Of a DNA stretch of 64,000 nt, positions 21,473 to 33,750 are shown in pieces. The notes beneath the pieces were generated by a model that worked only from the letters and a program-made list of their open reading frames with translations, was not told where the DNA came from and searched no databases. The stretch covers positions 1 to 64,000 of the forward strand of contig CAIOZA010000027.1 in the NCBI GenBank assembly GCA_903862655.1, read 5' to 3'. Positions within the stretch are counted from its first letter, which is position 1. Every line of letters begins with the position of its first letter. The DNA is from an uncultured Ignavibacteria bacterium. GTDB taxonomy: Bacteria; Bacteroidota; Ignavibacteria; Kapaibacteriales; UBA2268. Position numbers and translations under genes: made by a program.

Positions 21473-21919
21473 TCATTGAATTCTCTTAATGTGATCATTT
21501 ATACGAATATTTCCGCCACAAATGACTCTTGCGAATACACCTTCTTTTGGCATCACACAATCCCCGACAGTTTGATAAATAGCACATCTTGAATGACATT
21601 CCTTGCCAATCTGTGTAACTTCGAGAATAATATCATTCCCGATTCTTAGTTTTGAACCAATTTGAACTGATAACAAATCAAAATCTTTAGTTGTGATGTT
21701 TTCAGCAAAATCACCAGCAGAAACATTTGATAATCCTGCATTTCTTATTTTATCAATGCTCTCATCTGCTAATAATGAAATTTGCCTATGCCAATCACCT
21801 GCGTGTGCATCACCATCAATACCCCAGTTTTGCAAGAGTATTGCGGCATCAACATTTGATTTAGGAATACCCTTTTTGGTGCTTATTGATATAGCCTCTA
21901 TTCTTGCATAAGTTTTCAT
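21473..21919 (-). CDS. MOSC-domain protein
   Basis: The 148-residue product is a stand-alone MOSC domain: VEAISIS-like start, GIDGDAHAGDWHRQISLL, SVSAGDFAENITT-like NVSAGDFAENITT, and the conserved cysteine region ECHSRCAIYQTVGDC. MOSC domains bind the sulfurated molybdenum cofactor or carry sulfur for it. It is the last gene of the moaA-moaC operon; its ATG follows the moaC stop by 1 nt, behind an AAGGA site. I infer a role in cofactor handling or maturation for the molybdoenzyme encoded upstream. Confidence 0.85.
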   Translation of the reverse strand: MKTYARIEAISISTKKGIPKSNVDAAILLQNWGIDGDAHAGDWHRQISLLADESIDKIRNAGLSNVSAGDFAENITTKDFDLLSVQIGSKLRIGNDIILEVTQIGKECHSRCAIYQTVGDCVMPKEGVFARVICGGNIRINDHIKRIQ

Positions 21920-21920
21920 T

Positions 21921-22400
21921 TCATTCCTTAGTGAAATCGCCGGATTTGCCTCCGGATTTGCTGATTAGTTCGATACCTGATATTTGAATTGATTTGTCAA
22001 CGCTCTTACACATATCATACAAAGTCAGAGCAGCAACAGAAACAGCCGTCAAAGCTTCCATCTCAATACCGGTTTTTGCATCCGTTTTAGCATGAGACAT
22101 TATAATGATTTTACTTGACATCTTGTCTAATGTAAATTCAATATCTATCTGTGAAATAAAGATGTTGTGGCACAACGGTATCAGCTCGCTGGTTTTCTTA
22201 GCAGCCTGAATTCCGGCTATCTTGGCTATAGCAAGAGCATCACCTTTTTTTAAAGTGTTGCTTATTATGGCACTGTAGGCATCGGGGCTTAACTGAATAA
22301 CTCCCCTGGCAGATGCTGTTCTATATGATGATTCTTTCTCAGAAACATCAACCATTCTTGCTTTGCCTGATTCGTTCAAATGTGTTAACTCAGCCATCAT
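21921..22400 (-). CDS. moaC: Cyclic pyranopterin monophosphate synthase MoaC
   Basis: The 159-residue product is full length for MoaC and shows LTHLNESGKARMVDVS, a KKGDALAIAKIAGIQAAKKT helix in two parts, the active-site loop LIPLCHNI, THAKTDAKTGIEMEALTAVS-like SHAKTDAKTGIEME and LYDMCKSVDK with the catalytic lysine region. It forms cyclic pyranopterin monophosphate from the MoaA product, the first committed intermediate of the molybdenum cofactor. Two ATG codons in tandem (22400 and 22397) follow a GGAGG site very closely; either may be used. It overlaps the end of moaA by 4 nt. Confidence 0.95.
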   Translation of the reverse strand: MMAELTHLNESGKARMVDVSEKESSYRTASARGVIQLSPDAYSAIISNTLKKGDALAIAKIAGIQAAKKTSELIPLCHNIFISQIDIEFTLDKMSSKIIIMSHAKTDAKTGIEMEALTAVSVAALTLYDMCKSVDKSIQISGIELISKSGGKSGDFTKE

Positions 22401-23386
22401 CCTCCTATTTGTATCATATTGTTATTATTCATTGAAATCAAATTCTCGAGTGATGGATGTTCATAATCCTTCAACTGCAGATATTCGCTTATGATTGCTG
22501 CAATAGAAACATTATCATCGATCTCGGATATAAGCCTTTTTAAATTCAGCATTTTGTCCTGAGAAGAGAACAAACATAGCTTCAGCATGCCATTAGGAGT
22601 TATTCTCAGCCTATTGCAGGTAGAGCAGAAATGATCCGAAATTGAATTAATAAAGCTTATCTTCCCATTAGTTCCGGATATTTGGTAATCAACCGCAGGT
22701 GAATTTGTATCTGGTAATTTTTCAAGCGTATATTTTGAGCGAATTAATTCAAGCATTTCATCAGTTCTGATGAATTTTTCATTATTCCATCCATTATTGC
22801 TGAACGGCATAAATTCAATAAATCTGACATTTATCCCATTATCTATTGAAAACTTACAGAATTCAAGTAATTCCGAATCATTGATTCCCTTAATTACAAC
22901 GGTGTTCAGCTTAACTTTAATTCCTAGTTGAACAGCTTTGTTTATTGATTTAAGAACAGTAATCAATTCATCTGAACCGGTTATTCTGGCGAAAGAATAA
23001 GGGTTGAGTGAATCCAGACTGATATTGACTCTTTCTAATCCGGAATCTTTCAGTTCCTCAATTTTATCTTCAAGTAGTAATCCATTAGTCGTAATAGCTA
23101 ATTCAAACGGTTTTCTTTTTTTAATTTCATTCAGTCTGACGAAAAGATCATTTATATTCTTCCTGGCTAATGGTTCACCACCTGTTAAGCGGATTTTATT
23201 CACACCTAAGGATGTGAAAATATCAACAGTTCTCTCAATTTCCTCAAAAGTCAATAAATCTGATTTTTCAGTATAAGTTAGTTTGCCGTTAGGATTGCAG
23301 TATATACAATTCAGATTGCATCTGTCTGTAAGTGATATCCTCAGATAGTCATGTTTGCGGTTATATGAATCCTTGAGTTCAATCAT
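22397..23386 (-). CDS. moaA: GTP 3',8-cyclase MoaA (radical SAM)
   Basis: The 329-residue product has the radical SAM motif C23-x3-C27-x2-C30 (DRCNLNCIYC), the GGEP stretch (RLTGGEPLARKNI), the second [4Fe-4S] site near the C terminus (FCSTCNRLRI followed by LCLFS) and the conserved C-terminal Gly-Gly (IQIGG). It converts GTP to the 3',8-cyclo intermediate. It overlaps chrA upstream by ATGA and moaC downstream by 4 nt, so the genes are translationally coupled. No moaB, moaD, moaE or mogA is present in the window; these must lie elsewhere. Confidence 0.96.
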   Translation of the reverse strand: MIELKDSYNRKHDYLRISLTDRCNLNCIYCNPNGKLTYTEKSDLLTFEEIERTVDIFTSLGVNKIRLTGGEPLARKNINDLFVRLNEIKKRKPFELAITTNGLLLEDKIEELKDSGLERVNISLDSLNPYSFARITGSDELITVLKSINKAVQLGIKVKLNTVVIKGINDSELLEFCKFSIDNGINVRFIEFMPFSNNGWNNEKFIRTDEMLELIRSKYTLEKLPDTNSPAVDYQISGTNGKISFINSISDHFCSTCNRLRITPNGMLKLCLFSSQDKMLNLKRLISEIDDNVSIAAIISEYLQLKDYEHPSLENLISMNNNNMIQIGG

Positions 23387-24503: not shown

Positions 24504-25163
24504 TTAACAGCCTTCTCTCTTTGGCTTTCCACCTGCCGCAGGTGCTCCCTTAGCGGATCCTGTCATCTTTGGCATTGCTAGTTTCGGAACTGCTTTAATG
24601 CCTGTTGAATCATTTGAAGCTAGTTGTGGGGTACCACCGAAAAACTTGCTAACTTCTACCATCTTTGCAAACTTTGCCTTATCCTCAGATGTAGCATTAT
24701 CCGAAATGCTTGGAAAAAGAACTTTCTCTTTCCATTCGTTGATCCCGCCTGTTAGAAGATAAACTGATTTATAATTCTTTGATTTCAGAACAAACCACGC
24801 TTGAGCTGAGGCGATATTGTCATCAGAATACAAAATGATTTTATCTGTTTTCGATAATTTTAAAGAAGCTAATCCAGCTATTTTGATATTAATTGAAGTA
24901 GGAATATTATATTCGTTGAATATCTTCTCATCCCTCAGATCGATCAATTTGAAGTCGGACTTCTTTTGAATCAACCAGTCAGCCATATCTTCGACACTTA
25001 AACTTGATGACTTATCCTGAATTTTCATTGATAATTCATTGACATCGACTGAAGCAATTCTTGCTTTCAATGGATCGCCCATAAAGATGGCTATAAGTCC
25101 AAGAACAAAGGCAACAATAGCAAGTTTTTGGTTGATCGAATATTTTGATAAATTAATCTTCAT
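24504..25163 (-). CDS. Membrane-anchored rhodanese-fold protein with a single, C-terminal cysteine
   Basis: I start at the ATG at 25161-25163 (MKINLSKYS), giving 219 residues. One N-terminal membrane helix (about residues 14-31) is followed by a linker and a rhodanese domain (about 75-165): FKLIDLRDEKIFNEYNIP, then IILYSDDNIASAQAW and VYLLTGGINEW. The catalytic Cys normally found after the IILY strand is Ser here. The only cysteine in the whole protein is the last residue, at the end of a flexible Ala/Gly/Lys/Pro tail (GGKPKREGC). I infer a sulfur-binding or sulfane-carrier role by a mobile tail, by analogy to SoxY-like arms; this is unproven. Its start overlaps the upstream transporter gene by 11 bp. 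Confidence 0.75.
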   Translation of the reverse strand: MKINLSKYSINQKLAIVAFVLGLIAIFMGDPLKARIASVDVNELSMKIQDKSSSLSVEDMADWLIQKKSDFKLIDLRDEKIFNEYNIPTSINIKIAGLASLKLSKTDKIILYSDDNIASAQAWFVLKSKNYKSVYLLTGGINEWKEKVLFPSISDNATSEDKAKFAKMVEVSKFFGGTPQLASNDSTGIKAVPKLAMPKMTGSAKGAPAAGGKPKREGC

Positions 25164-25767
25164 GAGCAACCTCCGGTTTCTTGTAACCAAACTTCTTCTC
25201 AGCCCATTCAGCAGCTGCAAATCCACCAAGAGCCATAAGCACTACTGCAAATACAAGAATTCCGTAAGGTATGTTGAAGTAGGTTGGCATCAGCACTTTA
25301 CCCATCGGTGTAGAATTAGCAAATCCCTGAATCAGTGGATAAACTTCACCGTAAATAAATGTTCCGAGGAAAACCCCACCGATGAAGAAGACTCCATCAA
25401 TTTTACCGGTAGCACAGGCAACAACTGATGTGCCGGGACAGTAACCACCAATAACGAATCCTACACCCAGCAAAAGTCCGCCAACAATCTGTGGAACAAT
25501 ATAAGTATCGATAACATTCACCATTGTGATATCCATCAATCCGAAAACTGATAGGAAATAAACTCCTAGCATTGCTGTTACGATTGCTGTGAACATCACC
25601 TTAAAAACTGTAAGATCTTTAAAGTAAAATTGGGCTGCTAGTTTCTTTGCTGTGCCAAATCCCGCTCTCTCTAGGAAGAAACCAAAACCAATACCAATAA
25701 TGAAAGCAAACACAAGTCCGGTATCAGCTCCGAAATAATCAAATTTGAAATATGGCATCATAACCAT
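25153..25767 (-). CDS. YeeE/YedE-family sulfur transporter, half 2
   Basis: The 204-residue membrane protein has about five segments and the DUF395 signature (GLVFAFIIGIGFGFFLERAG; GVGFVIGGYCPGTSVVACATG) with the conserved Cys in GGYCPGT. YeeE/YedE proteins (TsuA) take up thiosulfate or related sulfur species, with conserved cysteines relaying the substrate. Family members are usually one polypeptide of about 350 residues; here the two halves are separate genes overlapping by 10 bp. It is followed by the rhodanese-like gene, whose start overlaps its end. Confidence 0.88.
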   Translation of the reverse strand: MVMMPYFKFDYFGADTGLVFAFIIGIGFGFFLERAGFGTAKKLAAQFYFKDLTVFKVMFTAIVTAMLGVYFLSVFGLMDITMVNVIDTYIVPQIVGGLLLGVGFVIGGYCPGTSVVACATGKIDGVFFIGGVFLGTFIYGEVYPLIQGFANSTPMGKVLMPTYFNIPYGILVFAVVLMALGGFAAAEWAEKKFGYKKPEVAHED

Positions 25768-26294
25768 TGCCTCCTAACAAAATATGCAAACATATAAGCT
25801 CCGGCAAATACACACATCATAAAAGCCCAGCTACCTAGATTGAGAATTGAACCCCCTGTCAGAGCCTGTCCACTTGTGCATCCTCTGGCAAGCTTAGCAC
25901 CGAATCCCATCAAAGCTCCTCCAAATACTGCGAAGTATAATCGTTTCCTGTTCGAAAAAAGTGGTCCTTTTTCAATACTTTTATTAACCCGTCCTGCAAA
26001 CATACCCGAAATGAATCCACCAACGAGAACTCCCATTACCTCAAATACCAACCAATCCTTTAGTGGATTTGTTGTTCCATCACCTAAATACTCTGAATAA
26101 AAAGTATTACCCGATGCATGGCTCGGTGCAACGGTATTAACCCCGACAGCAACAACTGTCGAGATAGCACCTGAAGCTCCCAATCCTCTTCCCATGATTA
26201 CATAAGATAAAAGTAAAACCAATCCAAGACCAATCCCGGCAATATAAGGATTCATATAGGGTTTTGGATTGTTTGTAACTAAATGTTTTGACAT
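25758..26294 (-). CDS. YeeE/YedE-family sulfur transporter, half 1
   Basis: I start at the ATG at 26292-26294 (MSKHLVTNN); a longer frame to 26372 would run into the end of the NrfD gene. The 178-residue product carries the DUF395 motif GALMGFGAKLARGCTSGQAL with its conserved Cys, and about four or five membrane segments. Together with the next gene it would make a complete two-part transporter for thiosulfate, sulfide-derived or polysulfide sulfur. It lies 28 bp after the PsrC-like gene, so uptake and reduction or oxidation of the sulfur compound are encoded together. Confidence 0.88.
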   Translation of the reverse strand: MSKHLVTNNPKPYMNPYIAGIGLGLVLLLSYVIMGRGLGASGAISTVVAVGVNTVAPSHASGNTFYSEYLGDGTTNPLKDWLVFEVMGVLVGGFISGMFAGRVNKSIEKGPLFSNRKRLYFAVFGGALMGFGAKLARGCTSGQALTGGSILNLGSWAFMMCVFAGAYMFAYFVRRQWL

Positions 26295-26322
26295 AAAATA
26301 ATCTCCCAAAATATATACATTT

Positions 26323-27270
26323 TTATTTGAATACTGAAGTTGACCAGTTACTTGCCTGACCGGCAGAAACAATTACAAGTCTCAAAATTAATCCACCTAT
26401 AATAACCATTACCGGAGCTATGGCAGTGTATCTGATTTTATTATTCACAGCTGCAAGCTGGATTATCAAGGGTATTAATATACCAAACCCAACAACAAAC
26501 ACCCAAAAAACCGGAGCATAAGCACCGCTGATAAGCATTTTGATTGACTCAATATGAACCAAGTCAGAACTTAAATGACCTACAATTAATAGTATGATTA
26601 CAACAAACTCGAACATCAGAAATGTATTATCGGCTTTGGCGAGCATTCTTCTTTCTTCGACATCATGTGCTGCCATATGAATAAACGCCGCCGCTGATGA
26701 TAACCCTGAAGTTAGAAATAGTATCCAAAGCATTGAACTATTCCATAGAGGTCTTGCACCGAATGCACTTAGCAGAACTCCAGTGTACATTCCAAGAAAT
26801 CCTCCAACAACCATACTTATTACTCCAATCATCCTCATTGTAGAGTCTTTAGAATTCAAAGTATCTGAAATTTTCTTTAAAAATGAAAACCGGTTTTGAA
26901 TGAATTCCGGTAGTTTTAATAACATATTTGCTATTAAAACAGGATATACCAATAATAAAATCCAAGCTCCCCAGGACATCGGAGATTGCCATTGGAAAGT
27001 TGTGTACATACGCCAAACGTAAAGTTTGTGCTCTAAATCAAGGAATAGGGCACCCATACCAAAGCTGATTGCAATCAATGCAATTGAAGGTATCCAAAAG
27101 CAGGAACATTTGGGATTCTTTGCTCTGCCGGTAAAAATAAAAAATCCGCTTATTATCATCATTCCTGCAACTATTCCGCCAAGAAAAAGATAAACACCTA
27201 TTTCCCAGCCCCAGATATGAAGATGCGGATCAATTTGTAAATTGTGTCTTGTATTAACTAATTCGTGCAT
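26323..27270 (-). CDS. psrC: NrfD/PsrC-family quinone-interacting membrane subunit
   Basis: The 315-residue protein has about eight or nine hydrophobic segments and the NrfD family look: HLHIWGWEIGVYLFLGGIVAGMM near the N terminus (shown in the parts HIWGWEIGVYLFLGG and IVAGMM), FLDLEHKLYVWRMYTTFQWQSPMSWGAW in the middle, and GLSSAAAFIHMA. PsrC subunits bind menaquinone and pass electrons to or from the PsrB iron-sulfur protein. It follows psrB by 9 bp. Direction of electron flow cannot be told from sequence. Confidence 0.9.
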   Translation of the reverse strand: MHELVNTRHNLQIDPHLHIWGWEIGVYLFLGGIVAGMMIISGFFIFTGRAKNPKCSCFWIPSIALIAISFGMGALFLDLEHKLYVWRMYTTFQWQSPMSWGAWILLLVYPVLIANMLLKLPEFIQNRFSFLKKISDTLNSKDSTMRMIGVISMVVGGFLGMYTGVLLSAFGARPLWNSSMLWILFLTSGLSSAAAFIHMAAHDVEERRMLAKADNTFLMFEFVVIILLIVGHLSSDLVHIESIKMLISGAYAPVFWVFVVGFGILIPLIIQLAAVNNKIRYTAIAPVMVIIGGLILRLVIVSAGQASNWSTSVFK

Positions 27271-27279
27271 TTTAATTCC

Positions 27280-27819
27280 TCATGTTAAATAATAAATTTG
27301 AGGTTTGGTGCCGGCTTCAGGAATCAACGAATGATTCGACCGGCTTGCCAGTAATTTCGATACATCACTCTGGGGATCATCGAGATCACCGAATGACATG
27401 CAATATGTCGGACAAACTGAGACACAGGCAGGAAGTTCACCTGTTTCTACTCTATGAATGCAAAATGTACATTTCGATGCAAATCCCTCAGGATGAATAT
27501 ATCTCGCACCATAAGGGCATGCTGCCATGCATGCTTTACATCCGCTGCATTTATCTTCATAAACCAATACTATTCCACCTGTTTCAGAAATGTGGCTTGC
27601 TCCGCATGGACAACAGTAAACACAAGGAGGATTATCGCATTGATTGCATCTCTCACTTCTTATTTCCTGATGTAATGACGGGAATTTACCTGTTGTTTCG
27701 TAACTTATCCAATCTCTGTTATATCCAATTGGTACTTCATTTTCGGTCTTGCAGGCAACCACACAATCCATACATCCAACACATTTAAGTGTATCTATAA
27801 CCATTCCGTATCTTGCCAT
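27280..27819 (-). CDS. psrB: Four-cluster ferredoxin subunit, PsrB-like
   Basis: The 179-residue product has sixteen cysteines arranged for four [4Fe-4S] clusters: CVGCMDCVVAC, CNQCDNPPCVYCCPC, CSGCKACMAAC and CTFCIHRVE with CVSVCPTYC. This is the DMSO-reductase-family electron-transfer subunit that links the molybdenum catalytic subunit to the NrfD-type membrane subunit. It starts 1 nt after the psrA gene ends. There is no export signal, as expected if it crosses the membrane together with the Tat-targeted catalytic subunit. Confidence 0.94.
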   Translation of the reverse strand: MARYGMVIDTLKCVGCMDCVVACKTENEVPIGYNRDWISYETTGKFPSLHQEIRSERCNQCDNPPCVYCCPCGASHISETGGIVLVYEDKCSGCKACMAACPYGARYIHPEGFASKCTFCIHRVETGELPACVSVCPTYCMSFGDLDDPQSDVSKLLASRSNHSLIPEAGTKPQIYYLT

Positions 27820-30027
27820 TTATGCCTCCCTCACGATTGTTACAAAATTGATGTTCATACCTGTTCCGCCCATAATGGGGTCAGTTTTGTATTTTGTAAC
27901 AAGGTGCGAATCGCTTGCACCTTTCTGGTAAGTATTGAAAAGTGCTTTAGACTGATGACCAAAACCATGAGTCATGAACACACAATCTGTTCTGATTCGT
28001 TCAGTTGCTTTCACTTTAACTTTATTGCTGACCATACCATCTTGATTCTTCAGTTTGATATAATCTCCATTTTTAATTCCATATTGCTTTGCTATATCAA
28101 TATTGATCCAGACTTCATTCTCTTCGATCATATCCTGTAAAATCGGATTTGATTGAGTCATGCTGAATGTGTGCACAGGTGATCTGCCGAATAATAATCT
28201 CATGAATCCTACTGGTGGTTCTTCAGGTTTTTCATATTTCGGAATGGGATCAAATCCTTTCTCGGCTAGCTGAGTAGAATAGAACTCAACTTTACCTGAA
28301 GGAGTATTGAATTTTTCTTCAACCCCTTCTTCGATATATACAGGCTTCTTTGCTCCGAGAATAATTCCTTTTTCCTTAAGTTCAGTGTATGATAGACCTG
28401 CTTTGTCGACTCTAAATTTCAAATAATCTTCAATATCATTCCATGGAAAGTAATGACCAAGTCCAAGTTTACCGGCTAGTTGTTTGGCAATCCACCAATT
28501 TGGTTTCTGATCATCGGGTGAATCGATTACTGGTTGCCTGATTCCAAGGAATGGTGTTGTGAAAGGTGAACTGTGAAGATCATCATATCTTTCCAGGTAT
28601 GTCGATTCAGGTAAAACCACATCAGAATATCCTGCGATTTCACTTGGAATAACGTCAATTGTTACAAGTAAATCCAGATTCTGTATCGCTTTTAATGTTT
28701 CCTGCTGATTAGGCAACGCATTCATTAGATTAGTCGCATATACAACCCAGGATTTAATTGGGTATGGATTTCCAGTAATAGTTGCTTCTCTAATACCGTT
28801 AGTCAAGCCTTCCTCTTCGCCTGCCCAGGGATATTTTTTACCCGGATTGTCTGCTCTCGGCATTACAGCTTCAGGATATGCAGGATATGGATATGGAGGG
28901 ATAGGCATCTTAGTTGGCTGCCAGAATGCACCCTTGTGATTCCAGTTACCGAGTAAAGCATTCAGTAATGCTATAGCCCTGCTTCTTTGAGCATCATTTC
29001 CGTACCAGGTTACATGTCTGCCAGGATGAATAAATGAAGCAGGTTTATATCTTGCCAACTCTCTTGCTGATTCAATTATAAGCTTTGCTTCAACTCCGGT
29101 TTCGGTATAAGCCCATTCGGGTGTATATTGTGAAACTTCTGCCGCGAATTGTTCGAATCCAATTCCATATTTTTCAGAATATTCTTTATCATACAATCCT
29201 TCTTTAATCAAGATATTTGACCATGTTAGAAGGAGTGCCATATCAGTTCCTGGTTTAATCGGCAGATAATATTTTGCCTTTCCGGCAACTATTGAAAACC
29301 TTGGATCGACTACAATTATCGATGCTCCATTTTCTACAGCCTGTGATAACTCCTGAACCTGCGAATTATGCATGTTCTCACCCAAATGAGAACCAATCAG
29401 TGCCATACATTTTGTATTCTTGATGTCCGTTCTTTCAGGCGAACCAATAACGTCACCAAAAGTCAGTTCAAAGCCAACTTCTCTAGGTCCGCGACATTGT
29501 GCGAATGATGGAGCAAAAATATGAGGTGTGCCAAATGCTTTAAAAGTATGTTTAATAAAATTGCCTCCGATTCCATGACTGAAGTAAGCAACAGCTTCAG
29601 GACCGTGTTTTGCTTTGATAGTATTAAGTTTATCAGCAATATAGTTAAATGCCTCATCCCAGGTTACAACTTTCCAAGATTCATTGCCTCTTGCACCTGT
29701 TCTTATTAGGGGTGATTTCAATCTTGTTGGATCTGAGTATGCACCAACACCACCTGTACCTCGAGGGCATAATCTGCCGTTACTAAGAGGATCTAAAGGA
29801 TTACCTTCGATTTTCCATAACTTACCATCCTTGACTGTTGCTATAGCACCACATTTCCAAAAACATAAATTGCAGTAGGTCGGAACCTGATAAGTTCCTG
29901 TTTTAGTTTTATCACCAGCAAAAAGTTTTGAACCCTTAGTAACATGATTGATAGTACCTAAGGCGGCTGCCGAAGCAAAAGTAGCGGAGGAAATCTGAAG
30001 GAATTTTCTACGTGAAAAAGACTTCAT
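27820..30027 (-). CDS. psrA: Molybdopterin oxidoreductase catalytic subunit, PsrA/PhsA-like
   Basis: The 735-residue product has a Tat signal (FSRRKFLQ), a [4Fe-4S] motif C52-x2-C55-x3-C59 with C87 (GRLCPRG), and a likely molybdenum ligand Cys178 in FAQCRGPREVG, as in the polysulfide/thiosulfate reductase branch of the DMSO-reductase family. The C-terminal molybdopterin dinucleotide-binding domain is present (LLFGRSPVHTFS; GYGINHFGD-like MTHGFGH). It is predicted to be periplasmic and to reduce polysulfide or thiosulfate, or to oxidise a sulfur compound, with quinone as partner. Its start overlaps the MerR-type regulator gene by 4 nt. Arsenate or tetrathionate as substrate is not excluded, but the YeeE and rhodanese-like neighbours favour sulfur. 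Confidence 0.9.
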   Translation of the reverse strand: MKSFSRRKFLQISSATFASAAALGTINHVTKGSKLFAGDKTKTGTYQVPTYCNLCFWKCGAIATVKDGKLWKIEGNPLDPLSNGRLCPRGTGGVGAYSDPTRLKSPLIRTGARGNESWKVVTWDEAFNYIADKLNTIKAKHGPEAVAYFSHGIGGNFIKHTFKAFGTPHIFAPSFAQCRGPREVGFELTFGDVIGSPERTDIKNTKCMALIGSHLGENMHNSQVQELSQAVENGASIIVVDPRFSIVAGKAKYYLPIKPGTDMALLLTWSNILIKEGLYDKEYSEKYGIGFEQFAAEVSQYTPEWAYTETGVEAKLIIESARELARYKPASFIHPGRHVTWYGNDAQRSRAIALLNALLGNWNHKGAFWQPTKMPIPPYPYPAYPEAVMPRADNPGKKYPWAGEEEGLTNGIREATITGNPYPIKSWVVYATNLMNALPNQQETLKAIQNLDLLVTIDVIPSEIAGYSDVVLPESTYLERYDDLHSSPFTTPFLGIRQPVIDSPDDQKPNWWIAKQLAGKLGLGHYFPWNDIEDYLKFRVDKAGLSYTELKEKGIILGAKKPVYIEEGVEEKFNTPSGKVEFYSTQLAEKGFDPIPKYEKPEEPPVGFMRLLFGRSPVHTFSMTQSNPILQDMIEENEVWINIDIAKQYGIKNGDYIKLKNQDGMVSNKVKVKATERIRTDCVFMTHGFGHQSKALFNTYQKGASDSHLVTKYKTDPIMGGTGMNINFVTIVREA

Positions 30028-30488
30028 GCTTGCCTCGTGTTGTTTTTGATTGTTTCTTTTATATTATCACAATGATTGTGTTCTTTGTATACATCGCATG
30101 TTCGGCATTCCTGCAGTGCACATAAATTATTACTATGCTTGAATGTCCAGCATGGATTCATGGTACTATTGTATGCCTCACAATTTTCTCTTTCGCCTTC
30201 AGAGCAATTACGGATCGACCAGCAGGGAATCATGGCATAAAGTGTTTTTATTGAGGCAATGGAGAATTTTTTGTTAGTAATTGAATCTCTGATGCATTTC
30301 AATCTGGTTATATCATTGGCGGAATATAGTCTATGATTTGAATCTTTCTTAAAAGGGATAACCAATCCTTCATTTTCGTATAACCTGAGTGTGTGAACAG
30401 AAACTTCCAAAAGCTGAGCAACTACTCCGATTGTATAAAGTGGTGTATCTTTATCTGTTCCAAGACCGATAGAGTTATTTGATTGCAT
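30024..30488 (-). CDS. MerR-family regulator with Cys/Trp-rich C-terminal sensor
   Basis: The 154-residue product has an N-terminal MerR winged helix (about residues 15-85: YTIGVVAQLLEVSVHTLRLYENEGL in parts YTIGVVAQLLEVS and TLRLYENEGL; HRLYSANDITRLKCI). Its C-terminal part holds eight cysteines and two PCW motifs: PCWSIRNC, ENCEAY, PCWTFKHSNNLC, ECRTCDVY and a last C near 142. This resembles a 'two-CW' metal- or cluster-binding module known from sensor proteins. It overlaps psrA through ATGA, so it almost certainly controls the psr operon, perhaps by sensing sulfur species, redox state or a metal through the cysteines. Confidence 0.88.
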   Translation of the reverse strand: MQSNNSIGLGTDKDTPLYTIGVVAQLLEVSVHTLRLYENEGLVIPFKKDSNHRLYSANDITRLKCIRDSITNKKFSIASIKTLYAMIPCWSIRNCSEGERENCEAYNSTMNPCWTFKHSNNLCALQECRTCDVYKEHNHCDNIKETIKNNTRQA

Positions 30489-30653: not shown

Positions 30654-33356
30654 TTACCAAATTGGTACAATACACTTTACTGAAAGCTTCTTTTTTGTAA
30701 AAGGAGTACTTCTTAAAACTGCAATCATCTTTTTATCATTTTCTTTGTGACAAGTTAAGCATGATCCAATTGTTAGTATCTTCTTTTGTTCTTCAATGTT
30801 GAAAGGTCTTGTGTTTGTTCGTGTGGAATTGTTGTTTTTTGAATTCTGCAGAAAGCCTATCCATGCATCTTCAGGTAGATTATCGCTGGAGAAGTTTGAG
30901 AATTTTTGTGAAAATATCCATCTTCCATTATTATTATTAATAACATATTTAAGTTCTCCTCTTCCATATCCTAATGCAACAGGATTGTTGTGGCATGTTT
31001 TGCAAGGAACTGACTTTGCTGATATAGTATGAGAGAAAGCAGGAGCAAAAAGTCGCTTATAGCTTTTTTCATTTTTCGATTTGCTAATCGAAAGAACCAT
31101 TCCTGGAATGAAAGTTGTTACTTTTGAATTCTTTGATTTGGGATCAAAGGTAACTCCAAGAGTTGGAAAATCAGAATAGAACTCCTTATCTTTTTCTAAC
31201 CATGATCCAATAGTTTCTTTATTTGTTAAATTATCCCAGCCTGTCATTTCTGGGTAATACTGAGTGTGGCATCCAATGCATTGAGGAGCCCATGCAGTAT
31301 GACAGGTAGCGCAATCCATACGGTTATGTCCCTGAATATCTTTCCCGCAAAGTGTTGAAACAGGCTTAGAGATTAATTGCTTACCGGAAGATTTTAATTC
31401 AGTAATTATTCTTCCATCTTTGTAAATCGTATTAAGATATGGTATTCCGGTTCCCTTTGAAACAATGTACTTAATATTCAGATCGGTTTTGTTCCTTATA
31501 TTTAGTATCCTCTGAGATTCCTGATCCATTTTATCTTTAGTGATAGTTGAAGGATTATCGGTATGACAATCAATACATTGAATTTTTACAGCATTTTCCT
31601 TGTGACTATATTTAGTCCCATCACCCATTATTTCATAGGAATTATGACAGTCTATACACATCATTCCGGCTTTGTGGTGAACATCATCGTTTTTCTTCTC
31701 AAACACACGTCCATCCTGTAGAAGTCTAAATTTAGACTTATCAATATTTGTAACATCTTTTGAATTTAAATGTGTTTCGTGCCACCCTTCATAGTTAGTT
31801 GCTATTCTTCCTGAACGGCTGTGACAACCAAAGCAATGATCGTCAGTTACTTTTAAAGTAATCTCTGGATGATTTACAAAATGAGATTTTTTGCCTGCTT
31901 TTAAATTTTCAAGGTCAGCAATTGATTCCGGCTGATAATTCAGATGACATGCCGAACATCCACCACCACGCGAAAGTTCATCGATAGGAGCAGGTTTTAA
32001 TTTATTATTTGAAAGGTGACACCCTGCACACAATCCCCGAAGATGGGTTTCAGCCGGAGTAAATCCAATATTTTCAATGTTATAATATCCGTCTGGAGTT
32101 TTTGATTCGCCAAACGTATATTTGTTTACCGCAATCACTCCCGACATACTTGTCATAAGCGACTTCCCAACACGTTTCAGAATCCCGGGATGACAGTTTA
32201 TAGTCCCACAGGTTTTTTCAGCTACATCAAGATTCCCGGGAGTCAAAGTCATTCCTCTGTGAGCTGTGATTTTATCCAATGATAAAGGATTGCCGAGATG
32301 ACAAGAATAGCACCCGATTGCCGCAACATCGTGACTTATTGAAAGCCCCTTTACATCTGAATGACAGTACATACAGGATTCAATTTTACCCTGAATTAAG
32401 GGTACTTTCCTTTTCAACAAAGAATCCTCAGGTGTTTTTAGATTGCTCGCAGTAAGGAACTCAACAACGTTTGCGTTATCATCCCAGGGTACAATAAGTT
32501 TCCATGATTCGCCTCGAAAGAACAATGCAAATACTGAAACGAGTGAATAAGATAGAAGAAAAATTAATAGAACTAATTTCAATCTTCCTGATGCTTTATT
32601 GTTCAGATATTTTACCGAGAAAATCCCAACTAATATCAAAAACAGAATGTAAATAGTAATCTCTGGGTAGTTCAGCCAATGAAAAATCTCCTGAATTCCC
32701 GTCAAATACCAAGGACCTTTCGTCTCAGGTGAGATATTCTTCGAAATTGATGGAATTAGGATAACTGAAAGAAGAGCAATCAATGGAATCACTTGAAGCA
32801 GGCTTTTTGCTGATGGAATAATCTTCTTTGAATGTTCTATTGTCAGCAACCAAACCACTAAAGCACTGGTAATAATATGATTAATATAAATGATTTGCAG
32901 AGAAGATGTTGTCCCGAACATTGTACCGGAGATTATATTTCCAATTAATGGAATCGAATTCAAAACAGATACGATTATATTCATTCCCTGAGTAGCTTCA
33001 TTGTCTCCTTTTAATAGGAAACCGCTAAACATTGCATAGAGTAGAAATGGAATCAGCATAATCATCCCCACCCAAGAGGATGATTTGACATCCTTTTCGG
33101 TTCTCTTTAATAAATGATCGATAATATGGAAAACTGAAGTTAAAAGAAAAATTTGGGCAGACCAGTAATGAATTGACCTGATAAACAATGCTGGTTTGTT
33201 CAGCAAAATCATTAATGATATTGAATTATAAGAATTCATTGGATCGAATGTAAAAGCGAGAGCAATTCCTGATAAAATACAAATAAAAAAAGATGCATAG
33301 GATAGATATCCAAATTGTGATCGTGAGATTAATATTTTGATTGAATCAAGCTTCAT
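30654..33356 (-). CDS. b6-type cytochrome b fused to a multihaem (about 12-haem) cytochrome c
   Basis: The 900-residue product starts with a cytochrome b module. Haem-b ligand pairs are His63/His77 (HYWSAQIFLLTSVFH, 14 apart) and His160/His175 (15 apart, the cytochrome b6 spacing). GPWY near 214-217 stands where Qo sites carry PEWY, and two more helices follow to about residue 280. From residue 328 on there are eleven CxxCH motifs (for example CMYCH, CYSCH, CAGCH, CSACH, CFGCH, CIDCH twice, CATCH, CIGCH, CKTCH, CLTCH) and one CGTINCH (Cx4CH), so about twelve c haems outside the membrane. It overlaps the Rieske gene by 11 bp. I infer a quinol-oxidising complex that passes electrons through a haem wire to a periplasmic or extracellular acceptor. 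Confidence 0.88.
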   Translation of the reverse strand: MKLDSIKILISRSQFGYLSYASFFICILSGIALAFTFDPMNSYNSISLMILLNKPALFIRSIHYWSAQIFLLTSVFHIIDHLLKRTEKDVKSSSWVGMIMLIPFLLYAMFSGFLLKGDNEATQGMNIIVSVLNSIPLIGNIISGTMFGTTSSLQIIYINHIITSALVVWLLTIEHSKKIIPSAKSLLQVIPLIALLSVILIPSISKNISPETKGPWYLTGIQEIFHWLNYPEITIYILFLILVGIFSVKYLNNKASGRLKLVLLIFLLSYSLVSVFALFFRGESWKLIVPWDDNANVVEFLTASNLKTPEDSLLKRKVPLIQGKIESCMYCHSDVKGLSISHDVAAIGCYSCHLGNPLSLDKITAHRGMTLTPGNLDVAEKTCGTINCHPGILKRVGKSLMTSMSGVIAVNKYTFGESKTPDGYYNIENIGFTPAETHLRGLCAGCHLSNNKLKPAPIDELSRGGGCSACHLNYQPESIADLENLKAGKKSHFVNHPEITLKVTDDHCFGCHSRSGRIATNYEGWHETHLNSKDVTNIDKSKFRLLQDGRVFEKKNDDVHHKAGMMCIDCHNSYEIMGDGTKYSHKENAVKIQCIDCHTDNPSTITKDKMDQESQRILNIRNKTDLNIKYIVSKGTGIPYLNTIYKDGRIITELKSSGKQLISKPVSTLCGKDIQGHNRMDCATCHTAWAPQCIGCHTQYYPEMTGWDNLTNKETIGSWLEKDKEFYSDFPTLGVTFDPKSKNSKVTTFIPGMVLSISKSKNEKSYKRLFAPAFSHTISAKSVPCKTCHNNPVALGYGRGELKYVINNNNGRWIFSQKFSNFSSDNLPEDAWIGFLQNSKNNNSTRTNTRPFNIEEQKKILTIGSCLTCHKENDKKMIAVLRSTPFTKKKLSVKCIVPIW

Positions 33357-33750
33357 TATTCAAAATTATCACATTTCGTAAATTATCAAGTTGAAAACTA
33401 ATTTTCTTTAAATTTTTTAGTGCAGGTCCTGATATTACCTGCCCATTATCTGAAAACTTGGAACCATGGCAGGAACACACTAATTCAGTACCGGATGATT
33501 TATTGATCTTACAACCAAGATGAGTACATTTATCTGAGAAAATCTCAATCTTCTGATTTTTTTTAACTAAAATTATATCATTAATAAACGAAAAACCTTC
33601 GGGGAAATCATTCTTGATAACTGACTGAACTCTATTTGAACTAACAATGTGATCATTTATTTTTAGTGATTTGTAGAACAGATAAGCTAAGAAAGAACCG
33701 GTGATTCCGATTATAGTTTTTAGAAATGCTTTACGAGTTATCAATTCCAT
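33346..33750 (-). CDS. Rieske [2Fe-2S] protein
   Basis: The 134-residue product has one N-terminal membrane anchor preceded by a Tat-like TRKAFLK motif, and a compact Rieske domain with both cluster-binding boxes, CTHLGC and CSCHGSKF, including the disulfide cysteines of high-potential Rieske proteins, then GPALKNL. It would take one electron from quinol at the Qo site and hand it to the haem part of the fused cytochrome encoded next; the two genes overlap by 11 bp. There is no separate cytochrome c1 or cytochrome f gene nearby. Confidence 0.93.
   Translation of the reverse strand: MELITRKAFLKTIIGITGSFLAYLFYKSLKINDHIVSSNRVQSVIKNDFPEGFSFINDIILVKKNQKIEIFSDKCTHLGCKINKSSGTELVCSCHGSKFSDNGQVISGPALKNLKKISFQLDNLRNVIILNNEA

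Follow-up and report, generated by a model that had tools for sequence, protein, structure and literature searches.

What becomes of the electrons of a cytochrome b that carries a chain of c-type haems in the same polypeptide is the question raised by a locus in an uncultured Ignavibacteria bacterium (GenBank assembly GCA_903862655.1). The window analyzed here is a stretch of 64,000 nucleotides (contig CAIOZA010000027.1, positions 1 to 64,000), in which a small Rieske gene is followed by a gene for a 900-residue cytochrome b/dodecahaem cytochrome c fusion and then by a module encoding a PsrABC-type molybdoenzyme, YeeE-type transporter halves and a rhodanese. We found that the 12-haem gene, fused to cytochrome b or not, is recurrently syntenic with this Psr module. 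To the extent of the open-access literature searched (subscription papers lay outside its scope), neither this link nor the fusion of cytochrome b with a dodecahaem domain has been described. The gene context points to a dedicated, so far undescribed respiratory branch.

The Rieske/b/12-haem unit has the following parts:

33346–33750, minus strand: Rieske [2Fe-2S] protein of 134 residues, ExtO-like (Pfam Rieske, 47.6 bits)
30654–33356, minus strand: fused cytochrome b/dodecahaem cytochrome c of 900 residues (motifs, Pfam and NCBIfam)
32823–33356, minus strand: b6-type four-helix part, residues 1–178 (Pfam PF00033, 50 bits)
32484–32819, minus strand: subunit-IV-like three-helix part, residues 180–291, ending FFRGESWKLIVPW (similarity to the subunit IV of relative L010)
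32706–32717, minus strand: GPWY motif, the PEWY equivalent, residues 214–217 (sequence motif)
30672–32381, minus strand: ExtM-type 12-haem domain, residues 326–895 (NCBIfam NF040943, 276 bits)
32190–32210, minus strand: CX4CH haem motif, residues 383–389 (sequence motif)

The original prediction had described a 900-residue chain with eleven CxxCH motifs and one CX4CH, histidines spaced 14 and 15 apart and a GPWY, and all of these are present in one intact gene, whose reading frame is uninterrupted from its ATG start and overlaps the Rieske gene by 11 bp. A sequencing error joining two genes, which had been named as a possible undoing of this claim, is refuted, as the identical join occurs in 16 complete genes.

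The Rieske protein has a single N-terminal hydrophobic segment and carries the cluster ligands CTHLGC/CSCHGS, which are invariant across 11 Rieske homologues. In the fused chain, the Pfam Cytochrome_B match (50 bits) covers residues 14–169 and includes two haem-b ligand pairs, H63/H77 (14 apart) and H160/H175 (15 apart), conserved in every fused homologue but the degenerate one of genome G345. A profile of the b part compared with solved structures matched cytochromes b6 (E-value 2e-14); this PDB search matched helices A–D only and did not find subunit IV, and the window protein's own residues 180–291 gave no Pfam PF00032 match. Those residues hold three further hydrophobic segments and the motif KGPWY. 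In the relative L010, Rieske, b6 and subunit IV are each encoded by a gene of their own, and the subunit IV, a PF00032-positive Cytochrom_B_C protein, carries AKAPWYFLGLQE, the same xPWY variant of the Qo motif as KGPWY. Its C-terminus, TFFRGPGWGWVLPW, can be aligned over 20 columns with FFRG..W...PW of the window protein (hhalign, 97%); because this C-terminal pattern is common to both proteins, we assigned residues 180–291 to subunit IV. Judged by sequence, KGPWY is a Qo motif of the xPWY type and a putative quinol-oxidation site; no xPWY variants are described in the literature searched. With two bis-histidine b haems, a co-encoded set of Rieske ligands and a Qo-motif variant, the pair is a predicted quinol:cytochrome c oxidoreductase with a Q-cycle, and the analysis supports the proposal of a two-gene Rieske/cytochrome b unit whose multihaem c domain takes the place of cytochrome c1 or f. 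A chain of seven helices that starts in the cytoplasm, like b6/subunit IV, would have its C-terminal haem domain on the periplasmic side.

The eleven CxxCH motifs of this domain lie at residues 328, 349, 443, 467, 508, 567, 594, 682, 693, 785 and 866 and the single CX4CH at residue 383, whereas 20,000 shuffles of the chain's own residues gave a mean of 0.025 CxxCH motifs and a maximum of 2. Several Pfam multihaem families match the C-terminal part, and the ExtM model NF040943 aligned over 16–583 of its 599 positions, that is, with the full-length 12-haem domain. Scores with Ext models were far under the curated NCBI equivalog cut-offs (276 versus 800 bits for ExtM; 66 versus 290), and the ExtM cut-off was passed by none of the 391 genomes of the GTDB class and none of the 395 of the phylum that we searched. 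The haem half is, from its alignment, a distant full-length relative of ExtM, homologous but not an equivalog. The haem half is no new family, since it aligns with ExtM and the Geobacter ext cluster also has a Rieske protein, a cytochrome b and ExtM.

All twelve haem motifs and eight extra histidines are present in 30 aligned homologues, in which Met 401, 577 and 753 and the non-haem cysteines Cys670 and Cys895 are also invariant. Eight extra histidines for twelve haems imply that some haems have a non-histidine or variable distal ligand. This bears on an explanation in which the 12-haem domain is more than a wire and itself reduces selenite, sulfite, tetrathionate or a similar compound, with Rieske/b and PsrABC/NrfD as alternative feeds. 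Some haems might then use another distal ligand or none; the CX4CH motif and the two cysteines are unusual, ExtM is located in a selenite/tellurite cluster, and in genome G371 an octahaem protein of the tetrathionate-reductase family adjoins the 12-haem gene. However, the three invariant methionines could complete most of the ligations, no CxxCK motif occurs in the 900-residue chain and no catalytic homology was found, and we consider a reductase role for the domain improbable.

Two architectures were seen among the homologues, most of which came from genome-wide profile searches (a protein-query search of genome contigs gave two loci, and G025 and G052 were added from an earlier search for relatives). 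Fused proteins have about 900–950 residues, and haem-only proteins about 620–665, mostly with an N-terminal hydrophobic segment. The 16 complete fused genes, which include the window's, all come from one GTDB class, and the other proteins are 42–47% identical to the window protein. A Rieske gene lies directly upstream in 16/16 of these, whereas none was found near the haem-only genes of the class (0/12, within the flanking DNA examined). Haem-only forms occur outside the class too, and stand at about four places on the haem-domain tree, whose root is not fixed; this count takes G009, whose contig starts within the b part (RGENWKF...), as fused. Because of these four or so placements, b and Rieske seem to be lost as a unit, and we prefer one fusion followed by repeated joint loss as the putative polarity. 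That Rieske and cytochrome b appear to have been lost together about four times, with the haem protein left behind, is new. A minimal two-gene quinol oxidase, as originally proposed, holds for the window but describes only one of two states: many relatives keep the 12-haem protein without Rieske and b, which argues that the haem wire has a function of its own.

In G345 (L069:8696–11281) the fused b part has neither H77 nor H175 nor the PWY motif, and no Rieske gene is present; this fits decay of b and Rieske as a unit and makes G345 a possible evolutionary intermediate. L024, a Melioribacter metagenome-assembled genome, and G401, which belongs to the class of the window genome, apparently share one contig with identical open reading frames (ORFs). 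Rieske/b complexes of other kinds occur elsewhere in the family to which the window genome belongs. That of L010 has four genes, with a separate c protein of at least 4 haems (its ORF ends at the locus edge). Those of L011, L013 and L014 have three genes, keep PEWY and include a separate 9-haem c protein; in these, position marks the gene ahead of cytochrome b as a probable Rieske gene. L025 (KSB1) has yet another three-gene Rieske/b/multihaem complex.

The window order, Rieske, b/12-haem, MerR, PsrA, PsrB, NrfD, YeeE, YeeE and rhodanese, continues with an ORF, a chromate transporter, moaA, moaC and MOSC. The neighbors of the unit are as follows:

30024–30488, minus strand: MerR-family regulator with a Cys-rich C-terminal tail (Pfam MerR_1, 57 bits; syntenic in most relatives that have the Psr module)
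27820–30027, minus strand: PsrA/PhsA-type molybdoenzyme catalytic subunit (2vpw match, E-value 2e-204; Pfam)
27280–27819, minus strand: PsrB/NrfC-like iron-sulfur subunit (Pfam, NCBIfam)
26323–27270, minus strand: NrfD/PsrC-like quinone-reactive membrane subunit (Pfam NrfD, 136 bits)
25758–26372, minus strand: YeeE/YedE-like sulfur/selenium transporter half, start codon uncertain (C-terminal half of PF04143; weak NCBIfam matches to TsuA and YedE)
25153–25767, minus strand: YeeE/YedE-like transporter, other half (N-terminal half of PF04143)
24504–25229, minus strand: rhodanese-domain protein, start codon uncertain (Pfam Rhodanese, 53.5 bits; syntenic)
21473–23386, minus strand: moaA, moaC and MOSC protein, molybdenum-cofactor genes (near the unit; also in some relatives)

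PsrA has a twin-arginine leader (SRRKFL), Fe4S4 cysteines at 52, 55, 59 and 87 and Cys178 at the position of the Mo ligand, and its best solved relative, the Thermus thermophilus enzyme 2vpw, is a full-length homologue. From sequence, it is an enzyme of the PsrA/PhsA/SrrA lineage, with a sulfur- or selenium-type compound as its putative substrate class. No match emerged when profiles of the haem protein and PsrB were compared. The transporter is split into two genes, with the halves of PF04143 in swapped order. The MerR regulator has nine cysteines, eight of them in its C-terminal part, and its homologue in G231 is also Cys-rich; it is possibly a metal or Fe-S sensor.

In most loci with enough flanking DNA (several relatives' contigs stop too early to show it), the 12-haem gene of either architecture has the MerR-PsrABC-YeeE-YeeE-rhodanese block next to it, and this synteny spans several families. 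In another family of the phylum, G511 and G633 have PsrABC and a rhodanese gene beside their haem-only gene, and one of the two also has the YeeE pair; in G512 a PsrA gene lies nearby. MobA often precedes the 12-haem unit. The PsrA type (E-value ≤1e-150) occurs in 29 of the 32 class genomes with the 12-haem gene versus 41 of 360 without it (Fisher's exact test, 2e-21, run once the synteny had been noticed and ignoring shared ancestry); a stricter cut of about 60% identity gives 25/32. By these counts the Psr module occurs without the 12-haem gene, and the 12-haem gene rarely without the module. The original prediction had called the terminal acceptor not obvious; a likely partner lies next door in the usually syntenic PsrABC-YeeE-rhodanese module. 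As side observations, the octahaem protein of G371 (L079:2292–3869) matches TIGR04315 at 591 bits, above cut-off, and the genes beside the 12-haem gene there also include a cytochrome b561 and another pair of YeeE genes; the octahaem protein of the same family that adjoins the 12-haem gene in G387 (L075:4453–6633) matches at 80 bits.

The Psr link might also reflect no more than a mobile or co-regulated respiratory island that is inherited together, the complex being a general anaerobic quinol oxidase that feeds soluble periplasmic cytochromes. Fused genes without Psr neighbors in several relatives (G192, G307 and G387) and the 41 genomes with the Psr type alone speak for this, but the synteny holds across families, in both architectures and outside the class, and we regard such an explanation as very unlikely.

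The window gene is the sole PF00033 match in the assembly, which is 98% complete. The same genome has an alternative-complex-III-like fused ActB homologue, with best matches to QrcB/QrcC, which together with a membrane subunit is located near a cbb3 oxidase. A sole Pfam cytochrome-b match in a genome that also has an alternative-complex-III-like module is a new observation. Oxygen respiration is thus probably served here by a separate quinol oxidase, which would leave the Rieske/b/12-haem unit to serve another branch. Among the relatives, G231 carries MerR-psrABC matching the operon Mros1773-1776 of Melioribacter roseus (PMC3534657), and we infer that G231 is this organism. The full set is present in one genome resembling that of cultured M. 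roseus, whose genome paper reported no bc1 genes (PMC3534657).

Our preferred reading, to which we give a probability of about 0.5, is that the unit is a menaquinol oxidase that runs a Q-cycle and is electrically partnered through its 12-haem arm with PsrAB, a periplasmic molybdoenzyme for a sulfur- or selenium-type compound. Menaquinol would be oxidized at the Qo site (KGPWY) of the b6/subunit IV chain. One electron would return to quinone via the two b haems, and the other would leave the Rieske cluster for the first of the c haems and travel down the 12-haem chain, which would be the electrical partner of the adjacent PsrABC-YeeE-rhodanese module. The preferred direction would be from menaquinol through Rieske/b and twelve haems to PsrAB and from there to an acceptor of high potential, for example selenite or a different chalcogen oxyanion. 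We infer the activity of the Q-cycle, the transfer of electrons to PsrAB and the substrate alike, and the electrons may go to PsrAB, to another reductase or to an extracellular acceptor. This reading is supported by the b and Rieske cofactor ligands, which are kept in the complete fused homologues, by the absence of Rieske wherever b is absent, and by the synteny and co-occurrence with the Psr module; G345, with its degenerate b, also lacks Rieske. Thiosulfate and polysulfide are lower in potential than menaquinol, so if the arm feeds PsrAB, only a compound of higher potential, selenite for example, could be the substrate. The potential of menaquinol is near −75 mV, and there is a precedent in Campylobacter jejuni, where two periplasmic molybdoenzymes, Nap and Tor, receive electrons from the Rieske/b complex Qcr (PMC6195509). 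The selenite reductase SrrA belongs to the PsrA/PhsA/SrrA lineage (PMC10100899), and by analogy the links of the ext cluster and of SrrA to selenite are converging hints rather than a demonstration.

Several points weigh against this reading. Given the potentials above, a Rieske-fed wire cannot drive the namesake reactions of Psr and Phs; PsrABC has a quinone subunit of its own (NrfD) and no need for a second quinol oxidase; the PsrA type occurs without the 12-haem gene in 41 sampled genomes; G192, G307, G387 and the genus g8 have no Psr module beside the 12-haem gene; and the co-occurrence test takes no account of ancestry. AlphaFold, run with a two-sequence alignment, gave no usable model (predicted local distance difference test, pLDDT, 31.5). 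The more specific proposal of a dedicated, energy-conserving unit, in which a Q-cycle machine is fused to a dodecahaem wire that delivers straight to a periplasmic Psr-type enzyme reducing selenite or a different chalcogen oxyanion, with the stripped form working on the NrfD route alone, can be offered only tentatively.

The same two units could also work in reverse order, with PsrABC oxidizing sulfide or polysulfide into the menaquinone pool via NrfD and Rieske-b-12-haem draining that pool to a high-potential acceptor, possibly an extracellular metal via outer-membrane cytochromes; the units would be coupled by the quinone pool and not by contact. This is thermodynamically the simplest arrangement and energetically at least as easy as the preferred reading. 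M. roseus, thought to be G231, respires Fe(III), arsenate and nitrite, and its growth is not stimulated by thiosulfate, elemental sulfur (S0) or sulfite (PMC3534657); several Ext proteins are more abundant in Geobacter during growth on Fe(III) (PMC5877670). However, the reverse order offers no reason for the haem protein to remain beside the Psr genes in relatives that lack Rieske and b, we noticed no porin-cytochrome conduit in the lists of neighbors, and the ExtI porin is dispensable for Fe(III) citrate reduction (PMC5877670). We judge this order somewhat unlikely.

These findings bring together three subjects formerly described apart, namely ExtM/ExtOPQ of Geobacter, conserved and biochemically uncharacterized, the Rieske/cytochrome b complexes with multihaem subunits, and the Psr/Phs/Srr molybdoenzymes. 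ExtM-type dodecahaem cytochromes gain a recurrent gene partner, and lineages that have the wire and the molybdoenzyme without Rieske and b make the use of a Q-cycle by a periplasmic chalcogen enzyme testable.

Among known systems, the Geobacter sulfurreducens cluster extHIJKLMNOPQS (GSU2940-2930) resembles the window in its 12-haem ExtM of the same family, small Rieske protein, cytochrome b and rhodanese gene (PMC5877670). Its Rieske protein (14.1 kDa), b6-size cytochrome b (23.2 kDa) and small membrane protein (16.8 kDa) are described in the same work (PMC5877670), and the window's Rieske and b parts correspond to ExtO and ExtP and probably also ExtQ. In Geobacter, however, Rieske, cytochrome b and ExtM are separate genes, whereas b and 12-haem parts form one chain in the window, and PsrABC-YeeE is linked to the window-type gene, unlike in the ext cluster as described. 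The ExtI porin, the ExtKL selenoprotein, ExtN and ExtS went unnoticed in the window and the relatives' loci, where Ext models were run on part of the neighbors and a rhodanese was the one shared neighbor seen. The cluster has been tied to selenite and tellurite reduction through an extI mutant, with only a preliminary result mentioned for the downstream cytochrome genes (PMC5877670). As a side observation, the NCBIfam model NF040968 (FeS_ExtO) has 416 positions, and its matches to multihaem stretches nearly coincide with those of the ExtN model. ExtO, by contrast, is a Rieske protein of 14 kDa (PMC5877670), and this model may carry the wrong name.

CbcL, MtrH and MtoC also unite a membrane b part and a multihaem c part in a single chain, but their haems are N-terminal, their b part is six-helix and HydC/FdnI-like, and the passages of the source that deal with them describe no Rieske protein or Qo motif (PMC6295460). 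With the opposite domain order and a b6-type b part in the window, a CbcL-type identity was rejected, and on those passages the originally suggested comparison yielded no real resemblance. A canonical bc1 or b6f identity was rejected on the c subunit. The Thermus thermophilus PsrABC (2vpw) is a full-length homologue of the neighboring molybdoenzyme, and we know of no multihaem or Rieske/b unit that is part of that system.

Rieske/b complexes with multihaem c subunits are themselves already known, from the Geobacter ext cluster (PMC2825233, PMC5877670) and from anammox bacteria (PMC12954380). The anammox complexes Kuste4569-4574, Kustd1480-1485 and Kuste3096-3097 have a b6-like cytochrome b with subunit IV and a multihaem c protein replacing cytochrome f, and two of these complexes include an NAD(P) oxidoreductase that is not seen at the window locus (PMC12954380). 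Kuste3096-3097 resembles the window in having cytochrome b and a c domain in one chain, but that domain is dihaem, and the separate anammox c subunits are hexa- or octahaem, whereas that of the window is a fused dodecahaem (PMC12954380). The window's unit is a compact, fused variant of the Rieske/cytochrome b complexes with a multihaem c subunit.

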